DNA of 43,427 nucleotides, from positions 1 through 43,427 of the forward strand of contig JAGHAQ010000061.1 in assembly GCA_021161425.1 (NCBI GenBank). The letters are read 5' to 3'. Shown here in pieces: positions 27 to 21,529 of this stretch. How positions within the stretch are numbered: position 1 is the first letter of the stretch; each line of letters begins with the position of its first letter. This DNA comes from Candidatus Tharpella sp. (GTDB lineage: Bacteria > Desulfobacterota > Anaeroferrophillalia > Anaeroferrophillales > Tharpellaceae). The notes under the pieces are model-generated. The model made no database searches. It saw only the letters and a list, made by a program, of their open reading frames with translations, and had not been told where the DNA came from. The translations under genes and the position numbers were made by a program.

Positions 27-793
27 ATGCAACTTATCGATTCACATTGCCACTTGAATTTAAGTGCCTTTAACAACGATGTTGATGCTGCGGTTCAGCG
101 GGCTCAGGCTGCCGGGGTTGAGAAGATGATAGTTATCGGAACCAATATGGCTGATTCAATCAAAGCTATTGAACTGGCCCATCAATATCCGAGCATTTAT
201 GCAACAATCGGTATTCATCCCCATGACAGTAAAAATGCGGATGAGGTTGGATATGAACGTTTTAAGGCGTTGTCTGACGACCCCAAAGTCGTGGCGTATG
301 GGGAGATTGGCCTCGATTTTTACCGTGATCATTCCCCCAAACCGGTTCAGCGGCGCGAATTTGCCCGACAACTGAATTTAGCCGGGAGTTGGGTTTGCCG
401 GTGGTGATCCATGATCGAGATGCCCATCAAGAGGTATATGATATAATCTGTTCTGAAGAGGGGTACCGGCATGGCGGTGTTATTCACTGTTTTTCAGCAG
501 ATTATAACTGGGCTAGGCGTTTTGTCGATTTAGGATTTGTTATCTCGTTGCCGGGAACTATCACCTTTCCTAAAAGTTATATGCAAAAGGAGGTTGCCGA
601 AAAGTTGAGTCTTGATGATCTTTTGGTTGAAACTGATGCCCCTTTTTTGACTCCGATACCATATCGGGGTAAGCGTAATGAGCCGGCCTATGTCGGATTT
701 GTTGCTGAGGCGATCGCCAAAATACGTAAACTCGACCCCGATGAAGTTGCAGCGGTTACCAGTGCGAACAGCAAGCGAGTCTTTAATCTCTAA
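27..793 (+). pseudogene. tatD: TatD family metal-dependent hydrolase, interrupted by a 1-base frameshift
   Basis: TatD-family enzymes are metal-dependent DNases/hydrolases with a TIM-barrel fold. The first part (27-407) carries the N-terminal HxH metal motif (His7, His9), the GIHPH segment near residues 62-66 and GEIGLD near 92-97. It then runs into an unrelated tail. The rest of the family (VVIHDRDAH, GGVIHCFS, the LVETDAPFLTP metal/active-site segment) continues in the next frame to 793. Adding one C to the CC at 382-383 restores the usual reading LARELGLPVVIH and gives one 255-residue protein, the normal length. The start at 27 follows a purine-rich GAAGGG. A single missing base in a short C run could be a real mutation or a sequencing/assembly error, and the otherwise intact sequence favours an error or a very recent mutation. 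lolA follows 15 bases later. Confidence 0.85.
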
Positions 794-808
794 ATCGGAT
801 AAAATATT

Positions 809-1549
809 ATGATTAAAAATTTTTGCAGATCAATTTCTTGCTCTTTTTTATGGGTTTTCGGGCTGAGTCTTTTGATCATGGTTTCAGCTGTCGTGGTTGA
901 AGCAGTCGAAAAAAAGAGTGGTCCTGTTGCTGAAACAGCGCCGGCGGCAAAAATAGAAAAAATTGACAGCGAAAGCATTTTGGCGAAGATCAGGTGGCAA
1001 TACCGCAAAGAAGAAGCCTTTAATGGTCGCTTTACTCAGAAAACAACCTACACTGACAGCAACGAGACCACTTTAAGTATGGGCCTGATATGGATTCAGG
1101 GGCCGGACAAGATGCGCTGGGAATACCAGATACCGGAAAAGCAGATTTTAATCTCGGATGGCAAAACCCTCTGGTACTATACCCCGGACTTAAACCAGGT
1201 TATGACCGGTTCGGTAAAAGAGATCAAGGAAGCCCGGATTATCATCAACCTGCTTTCCGAACTCAAAGCGCAACCCAAGAAATTTGATCTTGTCGTCAGC
1301 GAGAAGAACGAAAGGATTGAGGTTGAACTCTCTCCCTTGGCAGGTGACCAGGCACCCCCTTTCCAGAATCTCAAGATGATTTTTTCAGAATCATCACTTA
1401 CTCTCATTGAGACCCGGATGGTTGACCTGTTTGCGAATGAGATTGTGATTACGTACAAGTGGCAAAGCGGTCCAGATAAGGCTTTGCCGCTCTCTCATTT
1501 CACATTTGTTCCGCCTGCAGGTTGTGACATTATGCCGTTAGGGCAATAG
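809..1549 (+). CDS. lolA: Outer-membrane lipoprotein carrier LolA
   Basis: A 246-residue exported protein. LolA is the periplasmic chaperone that takes lipoproteins from the inner-membrane LolCDE complex to the outer membrane. The N terminus is basic and then hydrophobic (residues about 8-30), like a signal peptide, followed by a linker rich in Ala, Glu and Lys. The mature part has the LolA pattern: FNGRFTQKT near residue 72, then SMGLIWIQGPDKMRWEY, IPEKQILISDGKTLWYY and QVMTGS, matching the strands of the family's open beta-barrel. Length is slightly above the family norm because of the long linker. The upstream Shine-Dalgarno sequence is weak. The gene sits 15 bases after tatD and may share its transcript. 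A T run follows the stop, but without a convincing stem. Confidence 0.85.
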   Translation: MIKNFCRSISCSFLWVFGLSLLIMVSAVVVEAVEKKSGPVAETAPAAKIEKIDSESILAKIRWQYRKEEAFNGRFTQKTTYTDSNETTLSMGLIWIQGPDKMRWEYQIPEKQILISDGKTLWYYTPDLNQVMTGSVKEIKEARIIINLLSELKAQPKKFDLVVSEKNERIEVELSPLAGDQAPPFQNLKMIFSESSLTLIETRMVDLFANEIVITYKWQSGPDKALPLSHFTFVPPAGCDIMPLGQ

Positions 1550-1631
1550 TCTTTTTTTTGTTTGTTAATGACAGGTTGACTTTTGCCTGTTTAATTGCTT
1601 AATTGAAATTTTATACAAATGGTTTATTGTT

Positions 1632-1647
1632 GCAACTATTTAGTTGC
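1632..1647. other. Short palindrome upstream of hflK
   Basis: GCAACTA-TT-TAGTTGC is a perfect 7-bp inverted repeat with a 2-base centre, 46 bases before the hflK start. It could be a protein operator or a small RNA hairpin in the hflK-hflC leader. No consensus known to me matches it. Confidence 0.3.
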
Positions 1648-1693
1648 GGCTCGAACTGTTAAGCTCCATAACTGATAATTGTAAGGAGATGAG

Positions 1694-2788
1694 ATGCCCT
1701 GGGAATATAATGGCGACGAAAATGACAGCAAAAAACAACCGGCTGACATTGAGGAGATCATTAAAAAGGTCTTTAAACGGGCTGAAAAGGGGTTCTCCGG
1801 TGGCTTGCCGGGCGGACCACTTGTGTTGATTATGATACTTCTGGTGGGTTGGTTGGCGACCGGGTTCTATATTGTCGGCCCGGATGAACTCGGTGTTGTT
1901 AAACGTTTTGGTGAAGCGGTTTATACGACTAAATCCGGCCCCCACTGGCACCTGCCGAAACCGATAGAGACGGTTTTAAAACCTAAAGTCACTCAGGTGA
2001 AACGCTTGGAGATCGGCTTTCGCTCACTCTCTACCGGTCCCCCGGCCCGTTATCAGTTGGTACCGCGCGAATCGATGATGCTGACTGGTGATGAAAATAT
2101 TGTCAACGCCCAGTTCATTGTTCAATATCGGATCAGTGATCCGATCGCCTATCTTTTTAATATCAATAACCAGACTGAAACTGTAAGGGTTGCGACGGAA
2201 GCCGCGATGCGTGAGGTGATCGGTAAAAATGACATTGATATTGTTCTGACTACCGGTAAAAACAAGGTTCAACAGGATTGTGAAAAACGCCTGCAGGATG
2301 TTCTTGATAGCTATAAAGCCGGTGTCGACATTGTTGCCGTCCAGCTCCAGGATGTGCATCCTCCCAAAGAGGTAATTCAGTCATTTCAAGATGTTGCCAG
2401 TGCTAAAGAGAATAAAATCCGCTTGATCAACGATGCTCAAGGGTACAGCAATGATATCCTGCCTAAAGCCAAGGGTAGAGCTGAAAAGATGACCAATCAA
2501 GCCCTGGCCTACAAGGCGGAACTGGTTAACCAGGCGACCGGTGAAGCGGATCGTTTTCTGGCCAATTTAATGGCCTACAAGATGGCTCCGCAAATTACCC
2601 GTAAACGGATGCAACTGGAGATGATGGAAGGTGTTTTAGGCGGTATTGACAAAGTCATTATCGATCCCAAGGTAAGCCGTTCTTTGTTACCATTGCTACC
2701 GCTTGAAGCCCGTCCGAACCTTAACCGTAGTATAATAGAGTCGGCCCAGACCGGGTCACAATCTCAGGTCGGGAGGGTTGGACGATGA
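1694..2788 (+). CDS. hflK: HflK, SPFH-domain membrane protein
   Basis: A 364-residue partner of HflC. In proteobacteria HflK and HflC form a large inner-membrane cage around the FtsH protease and limit its action on membrane proteins. A soluble N-terminal stretch with a Gly/Pro-rich segment is followed by one membrane anchor (residues about 42-61) and the start of the SPFH domain (VGPDELGVVKRFGEAV). Further on are the typical FIVQYRISDP and TEAAMREVIGK segments, then an Ala/Glu/Lys-rich coiled-coil region. The start has a clear AAGGAG six bases upstream. The stop overlaps the hflC start as ATGA, so the two genes are translationally coupled. Confidence 0.95.
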   Translation: MPWEYNGDENDSKKQPADIEEIIKKVFKRAEKGFSGGLPGGPLVLIMILLVGWLATGFYIVGPDELGVVKRFGEAVYTTKSGPHWHLPKPIETVLKPKVTQVKRLEIGFRSLSTGPPARYQLVPRESMMLTGDENIVNAQFIVQYRISDPIAYLFNINNQTETVRVATEAAMREVIGKNDIDIVLTTGKNKVQQDCEKRLQDVLDSYKAGVDIVAVQLQDVHPPKEVIQSFQDVASAKENKIRLINDAQGYSNDILPKAKGRAEKMTNQALAYKAELVNQATGEADRFLANLMAYKMAPQITRKRMQLEMMEGVLGGIDKVIIDPKVSRSLLPLLPLEARPNLNRSIIESAQTGSQSQVGRVGR

Positions 2789-3630
2789 AAATTGCAAAGT
2801 TAGGATTAATTGTTTTGGTGATTGCCGTAGTTTTTATCTACAACGGGCTTTTTATCGTTGATCAAACCCAGCAGGCGATGATTCTGCAGCTCGGTAAACC
2901 GGTCAAGGTAGTCAAGGATCCGGGACTTAAATTCAAGATTCCTTTCCTGCAGCAGGTGAGTTTTTTTGATCGCAGGCTGCTACACTACGATGCGGCGCCA
3001 GCCGAGATCATCACCAGTGATAAGAAAAATCTGGTTATCGACAACTACTCGAAATGGAGAATTACCGATCCTCTTAAATTTTATCAATCAGTGCGCACCG
3101 AATCCGGTGCTCAGTCACGGCTCGATGATATTATCTATTCACAGCTCCGGGTTGAATTGGGTCGGGAGACGCTTATTGATATTGTCTCCAAGGTGCGTGA
3201 AGAGATCATGCATAAGGTAACCGTCCAGAGTAACGATGCGGCGAAGGCTTATGGTATTGAGGTTCTCGATGTTCGGATCAAGGCCGCCGATCTGCCGCGC
3301 GAGAATGAAAAACATGTCTTTACCCGCATGCAGGCTGAACGACAGCGTCAGGCCAAACGTTATCGTTCGGAAGGTGAAGAAGTGGCCATCAAGACCCGCT
3401 CTCAAGCTGACAAGGAGCGCACCATAATCATCTCTGAAGCTTACAAGAAATCAGAACAGATCAAAGGTGAAGGGGAGCAGGCGGCGATTAAAATCTCTGC
3501 TGATGCTTATGGTCAGGATCCCGATTTTTACGATTTCTACCGCTCTTTACAAGCCTATAGTAAATCGTTGGGGGAACGCACGACCGTCGTCATGGATCGT
3601 GATGGTGAGTTCCTGCGCCATTTCAAATAA
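2785..3630 (+). CDS. hflC: HflC, SPFH-domain membrane protein
   Basis: A 281-residue second subunit of the HflK-HflC complex. An N-terminal membrane anchor (residues about 5-24) leads into the SPFH core (VDQTQQAMILQLGKPV near residue 26). The family markers DVRIKAADLP and FTRMQAERQRQAKRYRSEGEE are clear, followed by a charged coiled coil. The end retains the conserved DPDFYDFYRSLQAY segment. It overlaps hflK by four bases. ribF follows after 22 bases and may be on the same transcript. Confidence 0.95.
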   Translation: MKIAKLGLIVLVIAVVFIYNGLFIVDQTQQAMILQLGKPVKVVKDPGLKFKIPFLQQVSFFDRRLLHYDAAPAEIITSDKKNLVIDNYSKWRITDPLKFYQSVRTESGAQSRLDDIIYSQLRVELGRETLIDIVSKVREEIMHKVTVQSNDAAKAYGIEVLDVRIKAADLPRENEKHVFTRMQAERQRQAKRYRSEGEEVAIKTRSQADKERTIIISEAYKKSEQIKGEGEQAAIKISADAYGQDPDFYDFYRSLQAYSKSLGERTTVVMDRDGEFLRHFK

Positions 3631-3652
3631 TTAAAGGTTATCTTGAAATACC

Positions 3653-4579
3653 GTGCAGATATATAATAATTTTCGTGAATATTGCTTTCCACCTCAGAGT
3701 CAGGTGGTAGCGATTGGCAACTTTGACGGTGTCCATCTTGGACACCGTTCTCTTTTCGCCCTGGCGACTGCCAGGGCCAGAGAGCTCGGCCTGCAGGCTG
3801 CGGCTTTAACCTTTCGCCCACACCCTTTAAAACTCCTCTTTCCTGAACGCCGGATTTTTTTGATCACTTCCTACGAACGAAAAGCTGATTTGATCGCATC
3901 CTGCGGTATCGACAATCTGGTGATTGCTCCTTTTGATCACCAGTTTGCCGATCTTACGGCCAATGATTTTGTTGAGAATGTTCTGGTCAGGCACCTCGGG
4001 GCTGCCGTGGTCATCGTTGGTGACAACTACACCTTCGGTCGTAACCGCGAAGGTTCGCTTTCCCGGTTGCAGGAACTGGGCCGAGCTCACGGTTTTAAGG
4101 TCGAGGTGGCGCCTCCCTGTCGAGTTGATGGAGAATTGGTCAGTAGCACCAAGATCCGGGAAGCAATAATGCGGGGTGAGATTGAACGGGCCTCTCGTTT
4201 TCTAGGTCGTCCTTGCGCGATAGTTGGTCGGGTAGGGCGCGGTAAAGGGCGCGGTCGGGGTATCGGTTTTCCGACTGCCAACCTGGTTTCCGAGGTTGAA
4301 CTTTACCCCTGTGAAGGAGTTTATGCCGTCTGGGTCGAATATCAAAATGAGCGTTATATGGGGGTCGTCAATATCGGTTACAATCCTACTTTTGCTGACA
4401 CCGGCCTAACCGTTGAGGTTCATATCTTTGACTTTGATCAAGATCTTTATGGTCAGGATTTAAAAATTATCTTTGTTGAATATCTGCGCAAAGAAAAAAC
4501 CTGTTCCGGAATCGAAGAGCTGCGGCAATTGATTGCAACTGATGTTGAGAGGGCTCGACAAATTTTGCTGGCTTCATGA
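3653..4579 (+). CDS. ribF: Bifunctional riboflavin kinase / FAD synthetase
   Basis: A 308-residue enzyme that phosphorylates riboflavin to FMN and then adenylates FMN to FAD. The N-terminal nucleotidyltransferase domain shows GNFDGVHLGH near residue 23 and the STKIREAI segment. The C-terminal flavokinase domain shows GRGRGIGFPTANL, VYAVWVEY and MGVVNIGYNPTF. Length is normal. The start is GTG at 3653, chosen because it begins the conserved N-terminal strand and no ATG lies nearby. It stands between hflC and the rpsB leader. Confidence 0.95.
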   Translation: MQIYNNFREYCFPPQSQVVAIGNFDGVHLGHRSLFALATARARELGLQAAALTFRPHPLKLLFPERRIFLITSYERKADLIASCGIDNLVIAPFDHQFADLTANDFVENVLVRHLGAAVVIVGDNYTFGRNREGSLSRLQELGRAHGFKVEVAPPCRVDGELVSSTKIREAIMRGEIERASRFLGRPCAIVGRVGRGKGRGRGIGFPTANLVSEVELYPCEGVYAVWVEYQNERYMGVVNIGYNPTFADTGLTVEVHIFDFDQDLYGQDLKIIFVEYLRKEKTCSGIEELRQLIATDVERARQILLAS

Positions 4580-4745
4580 AAACCCCTCTCCCTTCGGTAT
4601 GTTGGAAAAATTGTTATTCTCGTACAGCCATCTTATGAATAATTACTCTTGGGGTGCTCGCTGCTAAGCATCAGCTTTTACTGTCTACCATTTCTGAATT
4701 TTTACATATACATCAAATTATAATCCCATAGAAAACTGGTACGGA

Positions 4746-4795
4746 GACCACACGAGAACTCTCTTTTCCCCTTGCAAAGTGAGCTTTCTTGTGGT
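4746..4795. repeat. Degenerate ACCACA...TGTGGT palindrome, copy 1
   Basis: Left arm ACCACACGAGAA (4747-4758) pairs with right arm TTCTTGTGGT (4786-4795) apart from a two-base bulge. It resembles the perfect palindrome at 5804-5848 and the element at 40069-40131. Dispersed intergenic sequences built from ACCACAGAGA-like words are, to my knowledge, common in deltaproteobacterial genomes. Confidence 0.45.
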
Positions 4796-4888
4796 AACTA
4801 GGCCGCGTTCAAATTCACACGTTTTCTTGTTTTGACTTAAGAGCTGACCGGGTTTCAGATCTGGATTGTCAGGATTTCAAGTCAAAAG

Positions 4889-4927
4889 ACAGATACCGCG
4901 GTGCCGGGTGGTCCGGTTGGTATCTGT
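4889..4927 (+). promoter_or_regulatory. Folded rpsB leader hairpin, possible S2 autoregulatory site
   Basis: ACAGATACC (4889-4897) and GGTATCTGT (4919-4927) form a perfect 9-bp stem. The 21-base loop contains a smaller CCGG/CCGG stem (4904-4907 with 4913-4916). It ends 52 bases before the rpsB start. Ribosomal protein S2 is known to control rpsB-tsf mRNA in proteobacteria through the leader, so this is a candidate site. I cannot match it to a specific known structure by eye. Confidence 0.45.
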
Positions 4928-4979
4928 TTAAGGAGAGAGCGGAGGTTAAACCAACATCTTTTATGTATGGAGAAACAAA

Positions 4980-5792
4980 ATGGCAATGGTAACAATGCGA
5001 CAATTGCTGGAGTCCGGGGTTCATTTCGGGCACCAGACCAAGCGCTGGAACCCCAAAATGAAAAAATATATTTTTGGGGCACGTAACGGGATCTATATTA
5101 TTGATCTCCAGAAAACCATCAAACTCTATCGGACAGCCTATAAAGCTATCGTCGACACTGTGGCCGAAGGCGGAGATGTTCTTTTTGTTGGGACTAAAAA
5201 ACAGGCCCAGGAGAGCATCAAGGAAGCGGCTGTAAATAGTGGTATGTACTGGGTCAACAATCGTTGGCTTGGCGGTATGATGACAAATTTTAATACGATC
5301 AAAAAAAGTATCAACCGGTTGCGTAAACTGGAGACCATGAAAGAGGACGGAACCTACGATCTGTTGCCGAAAAAAGAGGTTCTTAAGCTGGAGAAAAAGA
5401 GAGAAAAGCTTGAAAAGAACCTTGGCGGGGTCAAAAACATGAAGAAAGCCCCGGCTTGTATCTTTGTTATTGACACCAAACGTGAGACGATTGCGGTGGC
5501 CGAAGCCAAAAAACTGGGTATTCCGGTAGTCGCAATTGTTGATACCAACTGTGACCCTGACTCAATTGACTATGTGATTCCTGGTAACGATGATGCCATT
5601 CGCGCCATCAAACTTTTTTGCACGAGTATTTCCGAGGCTTGTATCGAAGGCCGGGCCTTGCGTGATGAGCGGCTTATGGCGCGTGAAGAAGAGGTCGAAG
5701 TTGTGGTTGATGATGGCAAAATGCCGATCGTCGAAAGAGTTGGCGAAGGTGAAAGTGACGTCGCCACACCGGCAGAAGAAGTCAAAGCTTAA
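4980..5792 (+). CDS. rpsB: 30S ribosomal protein S2
   Basis: A 270-residue small-subunit protein. Strong family markers include [20 protein letters not shown] at the N terminus, [15 protein letters not shown], the [12 protein letters not shown] segment, and [13 protein letters not shown] followed by [11 protein letters not shown]. The C terminus has an acidic extension after the conserved core. It heads the conserved block rpsB-tsf-pyrH-frr. A 17-bp perfect hairpin separates it from tsf. Confidence 0.98.
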
Positions 5793-5803
5793 TTTAGTTG
5801 CAA

Positions 5804-5848
5804 TATAATTACCACAGAGACCACAGGGTGTTCTCTGTGGTAATTATA
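5804..5848. repeat. Perfect 17-bp inverted repeat between rpsB and tsf
   Basis: TATAATTACCACAGAGA (5804-5820) and its exact reverse complement (5832-5848) surround an 11-base loop. There is no T run after it, so it is not a standard terminator. In an rpsB-tsf transcript it could act as an attenuator, a processing site or an RNA stability element. The ACCACAGAGA word links it to the copies at 4746 and 40069. Confidence 0.8.
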
Positions 5849-5883
5849 AAATTTGATAAAACCTGTTCAATGGAGATTATATA

Positions 5884-6534
5884 ATGGCTCAGATTTCAGC
5901 GGCAATGGTCAAGGAGCTTCGCGAGAAGACCGGCGCCGGAATTATGGATTGCAAGGGCGCTTTAAAAGAGAAAGATGGCAGCCTCGAAGAGGCCTTGGTT
6001 TATCTGCGCGAGAAAGGACTGGCTTCAGCTTCTAAAAAAGGTGGCCGCATTACTTCAGAAGGGGTGGTGGCTTCATATATTCACGCTGGTGGAAAAATTG
6101 GGGTCATGGTTGAAGTCAATTGCGAGACCGACTTTGTTGCCAGGACCGATGCTTTTGTTGAATTTGTCAAAGATATCGCCATGCATATTGCGGCCGCAGC
6201 ACCGGTCGCTTTGGCGCGCGAAGATGTTGCTCCCGAAGTTGTTGAGAGTGAGCGCAGTATTTTTCGGACTCAGGCCTTAGATAGCGGTAAACCGGAGAAA
6301 ATCGTAGACAAGATCATCAACGGCAAGATTGAAAAATTCTTCAAAGAGAATTGTTTGATGGAGCAGGCCTTCGTTAAAGATACTGATCTTTCGATTGAAG
6401 AGTGCATTAAACAGATGATTACCAAAACCGGTGAAAATATAAGTATTAGACGTTACACTCGGTATGTTATGGGTGAAGGGCTGGAAAAAAGAAGTTGTGA
6501 CTTGGCCCAGGAAGTAGCTGATCAACTTAAATAA
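5884..6534 (+). CDS. tsf: Translation elongation factor Ts
   Basis: A 216-residue guanine-nucleotide exchange factor for EF-Tu. The N-terminal domain shows [16 protein letters not shown], and the core shows the characteristic [11 protein letters not shown] segment. It is shorter than the roughly 280-residue E. coli protein but matches the compact form found in many other bacteria. The start has GGAG eight bases upstream. The stop overlaps the pyrH start as TAATG. Confidence 0.97.
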
Positions 6535-7307
6535 TGTCAACCTGTATTGAGAATAGCTCATTGTCTAAATTGTCTCCTGAAACCTCCGTGGCGCCGAAAT
6601 TGGCCTTTCGAAGAGTTTTGCTGAAACTTTCCGGCGAAGCTCTGATGGGGGCCGGTGAATATGGTATTGAACCCTCGGTGATTTCAGGTTTTGCAGAAGA
6701 AATTGTTGAGATCCATAAGCTTGGTCTGCAAACTGCGATTGTCATCGGCGGCGGTAATATTTTTCGCGGCATAACCGCATCCGCCAAAGGCATGGATCGC
6801 TCCACGGCTGACTACATGGGAATGTTGGCCACGGTTATCAACGGTCTGGCTTTACAGGATGCAATTGAGCGTCTTGGCGTGCAGGTTAGGGTGATGACGG
6901 CGATCTCGATGCATGAGGTCGCAGAGCCCTATATTCGGCGTCGGGCAGTGCGTCATCTTGAGCAAGGTCGGATTGTCATTTTCGTTGCTGGAACCGGTAA
7001 CCCTTTCTTCTCAACCGATACGGCGGCAGCCTTAAGGGCGATGGAGATTCAGGCCGATATAATTCTCAAGGCGACCAAGGTTAACGGTATCTATGACAGT
7101 GACCCGGTTACTAACCCTAAGGCCAGGCGTTTTGATCAGCTCAGCTATCTTGATGTCCTGCAAAGAGGCTTGAAAGTTATGGATGCGGCGGCAATCTCTG
7201 TCTGTATGGATAATAATCTGCCCATTCTCGTTTTCAATCTGACCGAACATGGCAATATCAAACGCGCCGTCTGCGGTGATGAAATCGGAACCCGTGTAGG
7301 CAATTAA
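6534..7307 (+). CDS. pyrH: UMP kinase
   Basis: A 257-residue hexameric kinase that phosphorylates UMP to UDP, from the amino-acid kinase fold. It shows [13 protein letters not shown] near residues 27-39, [12 protein letters not shown], a [16 protein letters not shown] segment, [16 protein letters not shown] and [14 protein letters not shown]. The start overlapping the tsf stop adds about 20 non-conserved N-terminal residues compared with usual family members. It is kept because of the TAATG coupling, although a slightly later start is possible. Confidence 0.95.
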
Positions 7308-7342
7308 TTTTATTTGCGGCACCGTCAAAAGAGGAGTTAGAG

Positions 7343-7912
7343 ATGAGCCTGGAGATGGTTACAGAAGTTACTGACGAATGTAAAACCGGTATGCAGAAAG
7401 CGATAGAAGCCTTGAGACGTGATTTAGGCCGAGTTCGAACCGGCAGAGCTTCTCTCTCCCTGCTGGACGGAATAAAAATTGACTATTTTGGTACCCTGAC
7501 ACCTTTAAATCAGGTTGCTTCACTGGCTATTCCGGAAAGTCGTATGATCTCCATACAGCCTTGGGACAATTCTATAATCCCGCTCATAGAAAAAGCCATC
7601 AATAAGTCGGACTTGGGTATCAATCCCAGCAATGATGGCAAACAAATCCGTCTGGCAATTCCCAGACCTACCGAAGAGCGCCGTAAGGAGCTCGTTAAAG
7701 TTGTAAAAAAAATTGGCGAAACCAGCAAGATTTCATTGCGTTCAAATCGTCGTGATGGTATCGAGATGCTCAAATCTTTGGAAAAGGATAAAGATATCAC
7801 TGAAGACGAAAACAAAAAAGGTCAGACTGAAATGCAGAAACTGACCGACGAATTTGTCAAGCAGGTTGATAATGTAATTGCTGACAAAGAGAAAGAAGTG
7901 ATGTCTATTTAG
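7343..7912 (+). CDS. frr: Ribosome recycling factor
   Basis: A 189-residue factor that with EF-G splits the post-termination ribosome. It shows the family segments LRRDLGRVRTGRAS, LLDGIKIDYFGTLTPLNQVA, SIQPWDNSIIPLIEKAI, the DLGINPSNDGKQIRLAIP core and LTEERRKELVKVVKK-like RPTEERRKELVKVVKKIGE. Length is normal. A clear GAGGAG lies upstream of ATG. It is the last gene of the rpsB-tsf-pyrH-frr block. Confidence 0.97.
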   Translation: MSLEMVTEVTDECKTGMQKAIEALRRDLGRVRTGRASLSLLDGIKIDYFGTLTPLNQVASLAIPESRMISIQPWDNSIIPLIEKAINKSDLGINPSNDGKQIRLAIPRPTEERRKELVKVVKKIGETSKISLRSNRRDGIEMLKSLEKDKDITEDENKKGQTEMQKLTDEFVKQVDNVIADKEKEVMSI

Positions 7913-8053
7913 GGCTTTTAGCGTAGAACTTGATGCGTTGGTTTAAGTTAACCGGCCGCTTATTTTTAGGATGGCGGCCAAATAAAAACCCGCAATTGAA
8001 ACAGTAATTGAATAGAGCTGATTTAATTGCGGAACCTTAAAATGGAGGAAAGA
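7913..8053 (+). other. frr-ferredoxin spacer with two small hairpins
   Basis: GGCCGC (7954-7959) pairs with GCGGCC (7974-7979), and CCGCAATT (7990-7997) pairs with AATTGCGG (8025-8032). The second stem stops 21 bases before the ferredoxin ATG. Neither is followed by a T run on the + strand. They may mark the end of the frr transcript or a structured ferredoxin leader. Confidence 0.35.
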
Positions 8054-8221
8054 ATGTACGTAATTACTGAAGAATGTGTAGCTTGTGGTACTTGTGCGGA
8101 AGAGTGTCCTGAAGATGCTATCAGTGAAGCTGGTGATGTCTACGTAATCGACCAGGAAAAATGTGTCGAGTGCGGTGCTTGTGTTGAAGTGTGCCCGACT
8201 GATGCTATCGAAGAAAAGTAA
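8054..8221 (+). CDS. 2[4Fe-4S] ferredoxin
   Basis: A 55-residue small electron carrier. It has two classic CxxCxxCxxxCP motifs: Cys8, 11, 14, 18 and Cys37, 40, 43, 47, each followed by a D-A-I turn, which makes it a clostridial-type dicluster ferredoxin. The ATG at 8054 is chosen over an in-frame upstream start at 8027 because GGAGGAAAGA lies just before it and the family begins with the same MYVITEECVACG pattern. It is flanked by hairpins upstream and a strong terminator downstream, so it is probably a one-gene transcript. Likely partners are anaerobic oxidoreductases elsewhere in the genome. Confidence 0.96.
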   Translation: MYVITEECVACGTCAEECPEDAISEAGDVYVIDQEKCVECGACVEVCPTDAIEEK

Positions 8222-8248
8222 TAGTTTTTTCATTAATTGCATAAAAAA

Positions 8249-8275
8249 GGGCTGCCATCATGGCAGCCCTTTTTT
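8249..8275 (+). terminator. Strong intrinsic terminator after the ferredoxin gene
   Basis: GGGCTGCCA (8249-8257) and TGGCAGCCC (8261-8269) form a perfect 9-bp GC-rich stem with a 3-base loop, followed directly by six T residues. An A run in front could extend the pairing. It lies 27 bases after the ferredoxin stop. Confidence 0.95.
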
Positions 8276-8343
8276 ATGCCTTTTTCTGTCTTCATTATGA
8301 CTACAACATTTAAGTTGACTTTTCCTTACGGTAAACGTAAATA

Positions 8344-8373
8344 TTGTCACCGTTGTTAAGGGTGTAGTAAAAT
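8344..8373 (+). promoter_or_regulatory. Candidate sigma-70-type promoter for tatA/B-tatC
   Basis: TTGTCA (8344-8349), an 18-base spacer and TAAAAT (8368-8373) lie 20 bases before the tatA/B start. It follows the ferredoxin terminator, so a new promoter is expected here. A second -35-like TTGACT at 8315 has a poorer -10. Confidence 0.45.
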
Positions 8374-8392
8374 GTATATTTTAAGGTGAAAG

Positions 8393-8728
8393 ATGTTTGG
8401 TTTAGGACTTACGGAAATAGTTGTTATCCTGGTTGTTGCTCTACTTGTTGTCGGCCCCAAGAAACTACCGGAACTGGCTAAAACTTTGGGGCGCGGCCTG
8501 GCTGAATTCCGAAAAACGGCGGATGATTTTAAAACGAGTGTCTACCAAGATGAAGAGACCTCTACAAGTGACCGGCATAAAAGTGAAGAGCAGCGTCAAA
8601 TTAGTAAGATTCAGTATGCGGAAGACCCTCCGGCTCCTGCAAACAGCGAGCCCACGAAAAATCAAGGAATCGAAGCCAAACTTGCCGAGACAAGTGGTGA
8701 GAGCGATAGTGTAGAAGCCGGATCATGA
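8393..8728 (+). CDS. Twin-arginine translocase TatA/TatB-family subunit
   Basis: A 111-residue protein with one N-terminal membrane helix (residues about 3-20) followed by the hinge [20 protein letters not shown] and an amphipathic helix. The polar C-terminal tail is rich in Glu, Ser and Lys. TatA and TatB both have this plan. The VGPKKLP hinge and the DDFKTSV continuation look TatB-like, whereas TatA usually has FGxKKLP, so I leave the symbol open. Tat exports folded proteins with twin-arginine signals. Its stop overlaps tatC (ATGA). AAGGTG precedes the start. No second TatA gene is present in the window. Confidence 0.9.
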
Positions 8729-9510
8729 GTTTGAGTGAAACTGAAAACCCTGAGAAACAAGATCCTAAGAAAGAAGATCATGAGATGCATCTCACCGATC
8801 ATCTAGAGGAACTTCGAAAGCGTTTGATTTTTGCTTTTATTGCAATTGCAGTTTTTACGGTTGTTGCTTATCTCTTTTCTGAAGAGCTCTTTCGTTTGCT
8901 CATGGCTCCACTGCTTGGGGTTATGCCGGCTGAAAGCGGCTTAATTTTTACCAGTCTGACTGAAACATTTTTTACCTATCTCAAGATCTCACTCTTGGCC
9001 GGTTTTTTCGCTGCATCTCCGGTTGTCATCTACCAAATCTGGAGATTCTCGGCCCCTGGACTCTACGCCAATGAAAAACGTTATGTTTTTCCCTTTGTTT
9101 TCTTTGCCAGTATATTCTTTGTTGGCGGGGCGATGTTTGGTTATTTTGTCGTTTTTCCTTTTGGTTTTAAATTCTTTATGGGATTTGCTACTGACTTCAT
9201 TACGCCAATGCCAACCGTAAAAGAGTACTTCTCTTTTTCTGTGCGTCTACTGTTTGCCTTCGGGGTTGTCTTTGAACTCCCGGTGGTGACTGCTTTTCTG
9301 GCCTCGATCGGGTTGGTCAACGCCCGAACTCTATCTGAAAAGCGAAAATTTGCAATTCTGGGATCGTTTGTGGTAGCGGCGGTTTTAACACCGCCTGATG
9401 TTGTCAGTCAGTTGATGATGGCCGGGCCCATTATAATACTCTACGAAATGAGTATTATTGTTGCCCGCATCTGTGGCCGCAAAAAAGCGGAGAACGTTGA
9501 GGAAGGTTGA
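8725..9510 (+). CDS. tatC: Sec-independent protein translocase TatC
   Basis: A 261-residue polytopic membrane protein that recognises twin-arginine signals. The N-terminal cytoplasmic segment [15 protein letters not shown] is a TatC signature. About six hydrophobic helices follow, with the conserved [18 protein letters not shown] loop, [11 protein letters not shown] and [18 protein letters not shown] near the end. A charged extension of about 20 residues precedes the conserved start. It is coupled to the TatA/B gene by a 4-base overlap, and the yciO-like gene follows 11 bases later. Confidence 0.97.
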
Positions 9511-9521
9511 TTCTTTAGACT

Positions 9522-18900: not shown

Positions 18901-19360
18901 TCGTGGTTCCCGAGGTGAGCGCCAGGACTTAAGCGGGCCGGCTCTAAGAGAGAGGTTAGGGGAGGCTGGAGCTTTTATCGTAGTCGATGAAAAGATTGTC
19001 AGTGATGAACCTGACGAAATAAAAGCCGCTCTCACTAAGTGGTGTGACAGTGGGAGTATTGCCCTGATTCTGACCACCGGCGGCACCGGTTTTTCACCCC
19101 GCGATCTGGCCCCGGAAGCTACTATGGCGGTGGTTGAACGTCCGGCACCAGGCTTTGCTGAAGCGATGCGCCTTGAGAGTCTTAAAATCACCCCTCATGC
19201 CATGATCTCACGAGCGGTTGCCGGCATTCGCGGCACCACCCTGATTATCAATTTCCCCGGCAGTCCGAAAGCTGCCCGGGAATGTCTCGAGGTAATTTTG
19301 CCGGCCTTGCCCCATGCCTTGGAAAAACTGGCCGGCGACCCTTCTGATTGTGGTTCATGA
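18866..19360 (+). CDS. MogA/MoaB-family molybdopterin adenylyltransferase-like protein
   Basis: A 164-residue protein of the MoCF_biosynth fold. Members adenylate molybdopterin (MogA) or are close relatives of less certain role (MoaB). It shows TAILTISDRGSRGER near the N terminus, ALILTTGGTGFSPRDLAPEAT as the binding loop, and TTLIINFPGSPKAARE. The ATG at 18866 is chosen because AGGAGG lies five bases ahead and the protein then starts at the conserved strand. A start 39 bases earlier has no Shine-Dalgarno sequence. It overlaps the cimA end by 35 bases and the rimI start by four. Confidence 0.92.
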   Translation: MRQRTAILTISDRGSRGERQDLSGPALRERLGEAGAFIVVDEKIVSDEPDEIKAALTKWCDSGSIALILTTGGTGFSPRDLAPEATMAVVERPAPGFAEAMRLESLKITPHAMISRAVAGIRGTTLIINFPGSPKAARECLEVILPALPHALEKLAGDPSDCGS

Positions 19361-19821
19361 AGGTACTGGGAAACCCTTTGTTTATCTTTACTCACGCCAC
19401 CATAGAAGATCTTCCCGAGATTGTTGCAATAGAACAGGCATCTTTCAGCAAACCCTGGAGTGAAGAAAGCCTTTTCAGCGAACTTTCGAGCCTGCTCTCC
19501 AGCACTATCATCGTAAAATCCTCCTGCAAAGCAATTGTTTACGGTTATAACTGTTGCAAAATAATCCCTCCTGAAGCTGATCTCTTAAGGATTGCAGTCA
19601 GACCCAAAAGGCGGCGGTGTGGAGTCGACCGGGCCTTGCTCGATGAGATGTTCAGGTTTCTGCGTCTGCAGCAGGTGGCAACGATCTATCTCGAAGTCTC
19701 CGAAGTAAATCGATCCGCTATTGCCCTTTATGAAAAATCGGGATTTGTAGTTGTCGTAAATCGTCCGGGATATTATGACGATGGCGCTACCGCTGCGCTG
19801 CTTTTAAGGCGAGATCTATAG
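19357..19821 (+). CDS. rimI: Ribosomal-protein alanine N-acetyltransferase (RimI-like)
   Basis: A 154-residue GNAT acetyltransferase. RimI acetylates the N terminus of ribosomal protein S18. It shows ATIEDLPEIVAIEQASFSKPWSEESL at the start of the fold, LLRIAVRPKRRRCG at the acetyl-CoA site, and the IYLEVSEVNRSAIALYEKSGF end segment. The acetyl-CoA loop reads RRRCGVD where RxxGxG/A is usual, a small departure at the last Gly/Ala. The ATG at 19357 overlaps the upstream stop as ATGA and is preferred to a GTG nine bases earlier. It is convergent with the cytochrome gene. Confidence 0.85.
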   Translation: MKVLGNPLFIFTHATIEDLPEIVAIEQASFSKPWSEESLFSELSSLLSSTIIVKSSCKAIVYGYNCCKIIPPEADLLRIAVRPKRRRCGVDRALLDEMFRFLRLQQVATIYLEVSEVNRSAIALYEKSGFVVVVNRPGYYDDGATAALLLRRDL

Positions 19822-19857: not shown

Positions 19858-20325
19858 TCACTCTTCCCGATGACAGGAGGTGCAAGGGGTTGTCGGGCCG
19901 CTTGGCTTGTTCTCTTCTGCTAAATTTCTGTGGCAACGTTTACATAAAGCCCGGTGGGATACCTTGATAATATTCGGAACCCCGCCCTTCTCGTTGTCGG
20001 GATGACAGGTTCCACACTCTTTAATGTCTCTGGACATCTCCCAGTTTTCATGGCACTTTTTGCAGTCCATACTCAAATGTTCAATATGGCGAAAAATTGG
20101 GTGACAGGAAGAACATTTTTCTATTTCACTGTCGCCATCCCAAGCGTGGTGGCACAATTCACAATCATAGCTTTCGTGTTTGGAGTGAGTGAATATAGAA
20201 GGTTTCCGGTTGGTGGTTGGGTCAGCTTTGGTTACTAAAATGACTCCAGACGGGGCATCGTTGGCGACGGCTGTTAAAGATCCCAGCAGAAAAAAGAGCA
20301 CTAGGGCTATTGACGTCAGCTTCAT
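19858..20325 (-). CDS. Small periplasmic six-haem cytochrome c (class III-like)
   Basis: A 155-residue exported protein with a clear signal peptide (residues 1 to about 21, ending SLTAVA). It has six CxxCH haem sites at Cys55, 71, 88, 104, 128 and 148. Exactly six other histidines occur: His47, 50, 60, 80, 83 and 124. That number fits bis-His ligation of all six haems. The repeat pattern resembles class III cytochromes (c3 has four haems and c7 three), so this looks like an enlarged or doubled c7-type module. Its likely job is periplasmic electron transfer in anaerobic respiration. GGAGGG precedes the ATG. It stands alone between rimI and pyrK. Confidence 0.92.
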   Translation of the reverse strand: MKLTSIALVLFFLLGSLTAVANDAPSGVILVTKADPTTNRKPSIFTHSKHESYDCELCHHAWDGDSEIEKCSSCHPIFRHIEHLSMDCKKCHENWEMSRDIKECGTCHPDNEKGGVPNIIKVSHRALCKRCHRNLAEENKPSGPTTPCTSCHREE

Positions 20326-20568: not shown

Positions 20569-20724
20569 ATGGATAAATATCTACATATAAGGACAAATAA
20601 TTTAATTTACAAGGTATATCAGGCCGAAATAGTTTGGGTTAGGCGCAACTCGGATGGGAAAATGACATTTGGTCTTAAATTTATCGATGGCGAAAACAAG
20701 GTGTTGGACATTGTATCTTTTTAA
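20569..20724 (+). CDS. PilZ-like 51-residue mini-ORF, possible gene remnant
   Basis: ATG at 20569 opens a 51-residue frame. The middle reads AEIVWVRRNSDGKMTFGLKF, which has the look of the last two strands of a PilZ domain (the W, the turn and the GLxF end). The first half of PilZ, with RxxxR and the D/NxSxxG loop, is missing, and the frame has a stop 18 bases upstream of the ATG. It may be the broken 3' end of a PilZ gene, or a real small protein. Its last 14 bases overlap the proposed pyrK start. No strong Shine-Dalgarno sequence is visible. Confidence 0.45.
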   Translation: MDKYLHIRTNNLIYKVYQAEIVWVRRNSDGKMTFGLKFIDGENKVLDIVSF

Positions 20725-21529
20725 TACGGAAGTAATCTACAAACAAAAATTGTCTCAAGACATCTATCGCTTACGTCTTAGGGCGACAAAAGATTTCTGC
20801 CGGGCGGCAGCACCGGGCAAGTTTGTCATGCTCGGTACCGACGACAGTTTCTTCGATCCATTATTGCGACGGCCCTTTGGTATCTGTCGCTGGGGAGAAA
20901 ACTGGTTTGAGGTTATTATCAAGGTCGTTGGCAAGGGGAGTTGTCAGTTAAGCGGACTTGAGAAAGGGGCCTCGGTGGCCGTTCACGGCCCTTTGGGAAA
21001 TGGTTATCCGAAAGATGAACTGGAGAGTGAGCAAAAGTCTCTCTTTTTAGTCGCCGGAGGTATGGGCATCGCGTCTATCGCCTCACACCTCTTTTCTGCT
21101 CTTGACTGCAATCAATCTTTAACTGGAACCTTTTTGCTTTACGGGGCCGCAAGCTATTCAGAGTTGATTTTGCTTGACGAACTGACGGCTGCCTCCGCCC
21201 TTGGATTAAAGATGCAGACGATTACCGATGATGGTAGTTGCGGTTGTCAAGGATTGGTGACTCAACTGCTGACTAACGAATTGCAAAAACATCCACAGAG
21301 CCAGGTTTTTGCATGTGGACCTGAGCCCATGCTGAGAAGTGTTCAAAAGATTTTGCAAAAGGCCGAATGTGACGGTTTCTTAAGTCTTGAAAACCGTATG
21401 GCTTGTGGTTTTGGTGTCTGTTTAGGGTGCGTACAGACGGTGCTCTCTAAAAATAGTGAAACTGGCGTGGAAATGGCAAAAGTCTGTACTCAGGGGCCGG
21501 TCTTTCCGGCCCAACAGGTAGTTTTCTGA
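20711..21529 (+). CDS. pyrK: Dihydroorotate dehydrogenase electron-transfer subunit PyrK
   Basis: A 272-residue FAD and [2Fe-2S] protein that passes electrons from PyrD to NAD. It has a ferredoxin-reductase-like N-terminal domain (QDIYRLRL, PGKFVMLG, DPLLRRPFGI), an NAD-binding part (LFLVAGGMGIASIASHL, VFACGPEPMLRSV) and the C-terminal cluster cysteines in RMACGFGVCLGCV plus the later KVCTQGPVF. I place the start at TTG 20711 because AAGGTG is seven bases upstream and the family begins here. In-frame ATG 20687 and TTG 20669 would add residues with no match. It overlaps the PilZ-like ORF and is coupled to pyrD. Confidence 0.93.
   Translation: MYLFNTEVIYKQKLSQDIYRLRLRATKDFCRAAAPGKFVMLGTDDSFFDPLLRRPFGICRWGENWFEVIIKVVGKGSCQLSGLEKGASVAVHGPLGNGYPKDELESEQKSLFLVAGGMGIASIASHLFSALDCNQSLTGTFLLYGAASYSELILLDELTAASALGLKMQTITDDGSCGCQGLVTQLLTNELQKHPQSQVFACGPEPMLRSVQKILQKAECDGFLSLENRMACGFGVCLGCVQTVLSKNSETGVEMAKVCTQGPVFPAQQVVF

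Follow-up and report, generated by a model that had tools for sequence, protein, structure and literature searches.

What kind of cytochrome carries six haem-binding motifs in 155 residues, how did it come by them, and what might it serve? These questions are raised by a reverse-strand gene (positions 19858 to 20325) in a 43,427-nucleotide stretch of DNA from Candidatus Tharpella sp., the whole of which we call the window. The open reading frame call, a Pfam match and conservation all identify this coding sequence as that of a six-haem c3-type cytochrome. Its CxxCH motifs start at residues 55, 71, 88, 104, 128 and 148, and the histidines outside them number exactly six (47, 50, 60, 80, 83 and 124). 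Residues 1–21 (20263 to 20325, reverse strand) read as an apparent Sec signal peptide, co-linear with that of tetrahaem c3. If cleavage follows residue 21, a site judged by eye from the sequence, the mature protein has 134 residues; it has no membrane anchor beyond the signal peptide. An earlier note on this DNA had counted six CxxCH motifs in about 134 mature residues, along with six more histidines, and our counts agree. Six motifs in one frame are not a chance occurrence: when 60 windows were simulated with the dinucleotide transitions of the original, frame segments of at least 60 residues held at most one CxxCH each. Upstream of the gene we saw five sigma-70-like sites, against 2.4 expected.

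The gene is real and conserved. All six CxxCH motifs are kept in each of the nine distinct six-haem sequences that we compared, as are His50, His60, His80, His83 and His124, while His47 is kept in eight. The dN/dS ratio against the closest relative (L044) is 0.12, and the remaining finite values run from 0.06 to 0.13 with synonymous sites saturated or nearly so. The exception at His47, which has Leu there, is a copy without a recognisable signal peptide (L048, positions 113–580); it may be decayed or misassembled.

We asked to which family the protein belongs. The best Pfam match was PF02085 (Cytochrom_CIII), at 77.5 bits over a cut-off of 22.9, and the top PDB matches were likewise c3. PF14522 (Cytochrome_C7) reached 27.2 bits over a cut-off of 24.8, in two stretches, and NCBIfam gave only sub-cut-off matches, TmcA first. 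The profile comparison proposed in the earlier note thus came out for c3, with c7 far behind and NapC/NrfH absent, and this does not favour the extended c7-like fold suggested there. The source genome also encodes a tetrahaem c3, and every one of the order's 22 genomes has c3-type matches. Haem motifs are spaced 16,17,16,24,20 in the six-haem protein and 16,23,19 in the c3 of the order, so that 17 + 16 = 33 residues have been added. Aligned by hhalign, the six-haem set (A1) and 21 tetrahaem c3 proteins gave one full-length, co-linear alignment (probability 99.8) that ran from the signal peptide to the last haem, its sole gap falling at residues ~75–108; the tetrahaem reference comprised the 21 of 37 four-haem frames with the spacing 16,23,19, the other 16 being left out. 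Apart from the 33-residue module, the protein follows the c3 order His-His-CxxCHH-CxxCH-His-CxxCH-CxxCH. Since all nine sequences have six CxxCH motifs, we take the protein for a variant of the c3 family and not a tetrahaem c3. By these alignments, the protein belongs to the class III cytochromes c3 and has been enlarged by one internal dihaem module. AlphaFold returned low-confidence models, with pLDDT 38.8 for the full-length protein (7-sequence alignment A2) and 34.3 for the mature part (8-sequence alignment A3).

The protein can be divided into three parts, all on the reverse strand. Module M1 (residues 47–75; 20101 to 20187), with His47, His50, CxxCH55, His60 and CxxCH71, corresponds to the N-terminal half of c3 by profile alignment and excision scores. 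The extra module (residues 76–108; 20002 to 20100), whose M2 core at residues 80–108 contains His80, His83, CxxCH88 and CxxCH104, is marked out as the sole gap in the alignment to tetrahaem c3, by spacing and by excision scores. The C-terminal half of c3 (residues 124–152; 19870 to 19956) has His124, CxxCH128 and CxxCH148, as supported by Pfam, excision and profile alignment. Residues 47–75 can be aligned with residues 80–108 at an offset of 33 with no gap needed; counting ties, no other self-offset does better in six of eight sequences only. The mean score of M2 was 84.2 against M1 and 66.6 against tetrahaem N-terminal halves, while M1 scored 91.9 against the latter. Both modules, like most c3 of the order, have a Trp three residues past the His of the first CxxCH, and three of the nine sequences have a two-residue insertion between His80 and His83.

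Because M2 is most like the module that precedes it, tandem duplication is its likely origin: half of a c3 (M1) would have been copied in place to give M2, which would then have lost the second His of its CxxCHH. When the fixed ligand positions are discounted, M1 and M2 agree at only 4 of 21 residues (permutation p 0.13 for identity, 0.0046 by BLOSUM score), so that duplication is likely rather than proven, and M2 may instead derive from another c3 copy. The history could also be read the other way round, with M2 and the C-terminal half as the ancestral c3 core and M1 as the added piece, either through the reverse duplication or as a dihaem module placed in front. M2 does adjoin the C-terminal half directly, and the best c3 stretch in Pfam's match is residues 78–152. 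However, excision of M2 left a remainder scoring 87–103 bits against the tetrahaem HMM and gave a better fit than excision of M1 in nine of nine sequences, the CxxCHH is kept by M1 and not by M2, and the leader and M1 together are co-linear with tetrahaem c3. We therefore consider this reversed order unlikely; given duplication, the question of which copy is ancestral is partly one of wording.

Duplication of M1 with loss of one histidine would bear on how the haems could be ligated. The spare histidines are distributed as three in M1, two in M2 and one in the C-terminal half. The residue after the first CxxCH of M2 is Glu, Lys or Gly in all nine sequences and never His; the copying therefore added two haems together with two histidines, and it is because M2 lacks this second His that six haems face exactly six spare histidines. 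The conserved positions support the earlier description of a compact multihaem cytochrome whose histidine supply is balanced for putative bis-His ligation. The count of exactly six holds for the window protein but is no rule for the family: among seven complete sequences three have six spare histidines and four have seven or eight, and with one or two additional histidines in these four the strict count is limited to some members. The axial ligand pairing scheme of c3 provides a template for the six-haem protein. By this analogy His47 would pair with haem 1, His60 with haem 2, His80 with haem 3 and His124 with haem 6, and His50 and His83 would be shared by haems 4 and 5, in either order.

The source genome is a MAG of only 63% completeness (1.6 Mb), and we looked for relatives elsewhere. 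Full-length relatives occur in 8 of the 22 genomes of the order, the source genome included: in 7 of 13 genomes of the genus, in the single genome of another genus and in neither of the two of a third genus in the family, with none in the six genomes of the order's other family. The class-wide search covered these same 22 genomes. Three genomes of the same family (G005, G011 and G015) lack the gene although they are 90–94% complete, so the distribution is patchy. In a phylum sample, a first look at the best 10 candidates per genome, and hence one that may miss weak relatives, gave a full-length match in at least 7 of 395 genomes, all seven within Tharpellaceae. Other matches in that sample typically span about half of the profile, and the 15 partial matches examined (L070, L138–L151) all have four CxxCH motifs. 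A single-protein scan of the genome contig and viral contig sets gave no match. The alignment-based scan of the genome contig set gave seven loci, on MAG contigs labelled Thermodesulfobacteriota, Deltaproteobacteria and similar, among which L047 (labelled Desulfocapsa sp.) is an additional sequence; no six-haem relative was found among viral contigs by that scan, or among plasmids. In these searches the six-haem form was thus confined to a single family, within a small class lacking detected dsrA.

We also compared the protein with known multihaem cytochromes. The earlier note had also offered a fused pair, and two joined c7-like or c3-like domains would indeed bring six haems as two c7, with PF14522 weakly over its cut-off in two stretches. 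Yet there is only one C-terminal His-CxxCH-CxxCH half, the alignment shows one inserted dihaem module and not two joined domains, a single 33-residue insertion explains the entire length, and 3oue, a natural unit of two c7 in the PDB, was matched only at E 0.67; we find a fusion scarcely credible. The GSU1996 bi-domain represented by 3oue is likewise a c7/c3-type polypeptide with six haems, but it is described as consisting of two complete three-haem c7 domains, ~21 kDa in all, with an axial Met in each (PMC10138318), whereas the six-haem c3 is predicted to be a single domain of ~15 kDa with an all-His supply. It is very improbable, too, that the protein is a subunit of a known complex, whether QrcA, TmcA or a quinol oxidase subunit of NapC/NrfH type. 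QrcA is, according to PMC8076601, a six-haem protein of similar length from the same phylum, but its haem spacing (21,52–56,34–50,13–45 in 10 of 10 examined) is unlike that of the six-haem c3, and its model (NF041781) scored 11.4 bits against a cut-off of 180. TmcA (NF045722), an acidic tetrahaem type II c3, resembles the six-haem form in its low charge and is the closest NCBIfam model, but its 34 bits fall far below the cut-off of 114, and the six-haem form has two haems more and no tmc genes alongside it in the loci examined. NapC/NrfH was absent among the seven Pfam matches up to E 10, the protein has no membrane anchor, and no Mo- or NrfD-like genes, nor tmc genes, lie beside it in the loci examined. 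The HmcA and nine-haem cytochrome models matched weakly, at 25.6 and 21.1 bits against curated cut-offs of 400 and 640. Both 16-haem HmcA and nine-haem NhcA are built of c3-type units and repeat whole domains, whereas the six-haem form appears to repeat half a domain inside one c3. Its nearest kin remains tetrahaem c3 (TpIc3 and relatives, PF02085), with which it shares the signal peptide, the leader and the His/CxxCH order in both halves, and from which it differs by two more haems from one insertion and by being near-neutral to acidic instead of basic.

The gene neighbourhood offered no fixed partner across the nine loci. In the window the cytochrome gene lies tail to tail with rimI (19348 to 19821, forward strand), followed on that side by a molybdopterin-adenylyltransferase-like gene and citramalate synthase, and head to head with a pyrK-like gene for a dihydroorotate dehydrogenase electron-transfer subunit (20669 to 21529, forward strand), with pyrD on the same side. 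We regard rimI and the pyrK-like gene as neighbours only and claim no common role, and the earlier remark that no respiratory genes are adjacent is right for both sides of the gene in the window. The 3' neighbour is rimI in six of the nine loci (window, L044, L045, L046, L050 and L035), a CZB chemoreceptor in two (L047 and L048) and a contig end in one (L049). The 5' neighbour is pyrK in three (window, L045 and L035), an HdrA-like gene in two (L046 and L049), FtsH in one (L047) and a contig end in three. In L049 the HdrA-like gene, which encodes a protein of 1500 residues with two flavin domains, is followed by FlpD, HdrC/B-like and Flx-like genes, an Hdr/Flx-type operon (positions 127–9519, reverse strand) head to head with the six-haem gene. 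Hdr-type complexes are cytoplasmic, and for this reason, and because the arrangement occurs in just two of the six loci with a readable 5' neighbour, we set this partner aside. The chemoreceptor was rejected as a partner as well, adjoining the gene in L047 and L048 only.

Charge gave an indication of role. Counted as K+R–D–E, haem propionates excluded, net charge is –1 to –11 in all eight six-haem proteins and +7 to +20 in all 21 tetrahaem c3, whose mature start was approximated as 35 residues ahead of the first CxxCH. Within the six-haem form, the C-terminal half carries a positive charge (+1 to +6 in 8 of 8). From the contrast between this near-neutral to acidic form and its strongly basic paralogues, and from the cellular setting, we infer a periplasmic relay working beside them. 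Six closely packed, presumably low-potential haems would carry and store electrons; the negative M1–M2 end could dock on the cell's own tetrahaem c3, which is strongly basic, and the positive C-terminal half could meet the next partner. Electrons would thereby be relayed between the c3 pool and an acceptor in the membrane or outer membrane. In Desulfovibrio, according to PMC6303296, basic TpIc3 hands electrons to the Qrc complex. In none of the order's 22 genomes did QrcA or DsrA score over cut-off; we therefore found no classical sulfate-reduction route there and propose a relay to another acceptor. NiFe hydrogenase is over cut-off in 14 of the 22 genomes but in only four of the eight carriers of the six-haem gene, and two of the four negative carriers are incomplete (63 and 70%); its presence does not track the gene, and we rejected it as a partner.

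Taken as a whole, a six-haem periplasmic carrier of the c3 family, with M2 inserted by duplication and with the pairing and relay role suggested above, is probably the best explanation. We hold more tentatively a specific version in which haem wires would lengthen in a plus-two step: a c3 half copied in place, one His lost, ligands exchanged between modules, with His50 or His83 extending into the module next to its own so that both new haems are paired, and the resulting polar carrier, one continuous run of six haems, bridging the basic c3 pool to a further acceptor in a lineage without detected dsrA.

The current view is that large multihaem cytochromes grow through module repetition, mostly of whole domains. 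The gap-free half-c3 insertion suggests that haem chains may also lengthen by an inserted segment, each haem still being supplied with two histidines. With the tetrahaem parent in the same genomes, the two forms make a clean before-and-after pair, suited to measuring how two more haems affect potential, charge and choice of partner. Our searches of the open PubMed Central literature turned up no c3 that has six haems through an internal module. We expect that such proteins are annotated plainly as ‘cytochrome c3 family’, a label that conceals the six-haem form.

The order holds other cytochromes of note. Although c3-type cytochromes occur in all its genomes, dsrA is over cut-off in none of the 22. 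Proteins of ~300 residues with 12 CxxCH motifs (L092–L096, with weaker QrcA matches besides) are distantly QrcA-like, under the cut-off, and may be the cytochrome that works on the quinone side in these bacteria. A c3-like family with five CxxCH motifs, ~175–194 residues and constant spacing 17,15,39,13 (L110–L113, L115 and L117) recurs in several genomes. A second tetrahaem c3 group (L100–L108), spaced 28,20,19 or 28,20,20, is nearer to TmcA (79–93 bits, cut-off 114) than the 16,23,19 group. Neighbouring pairs of tetrahaem c3 genes were seen in the genus (G011 C312, G006 C31, G004 C102, G008 C160, G010 C537 and G012 C121). Finally, in the phylum sample, three species of one genus have c3-like matches that are each interrupted by a single in-frame stop (G288 C1, G396 C1 and G227 C97).
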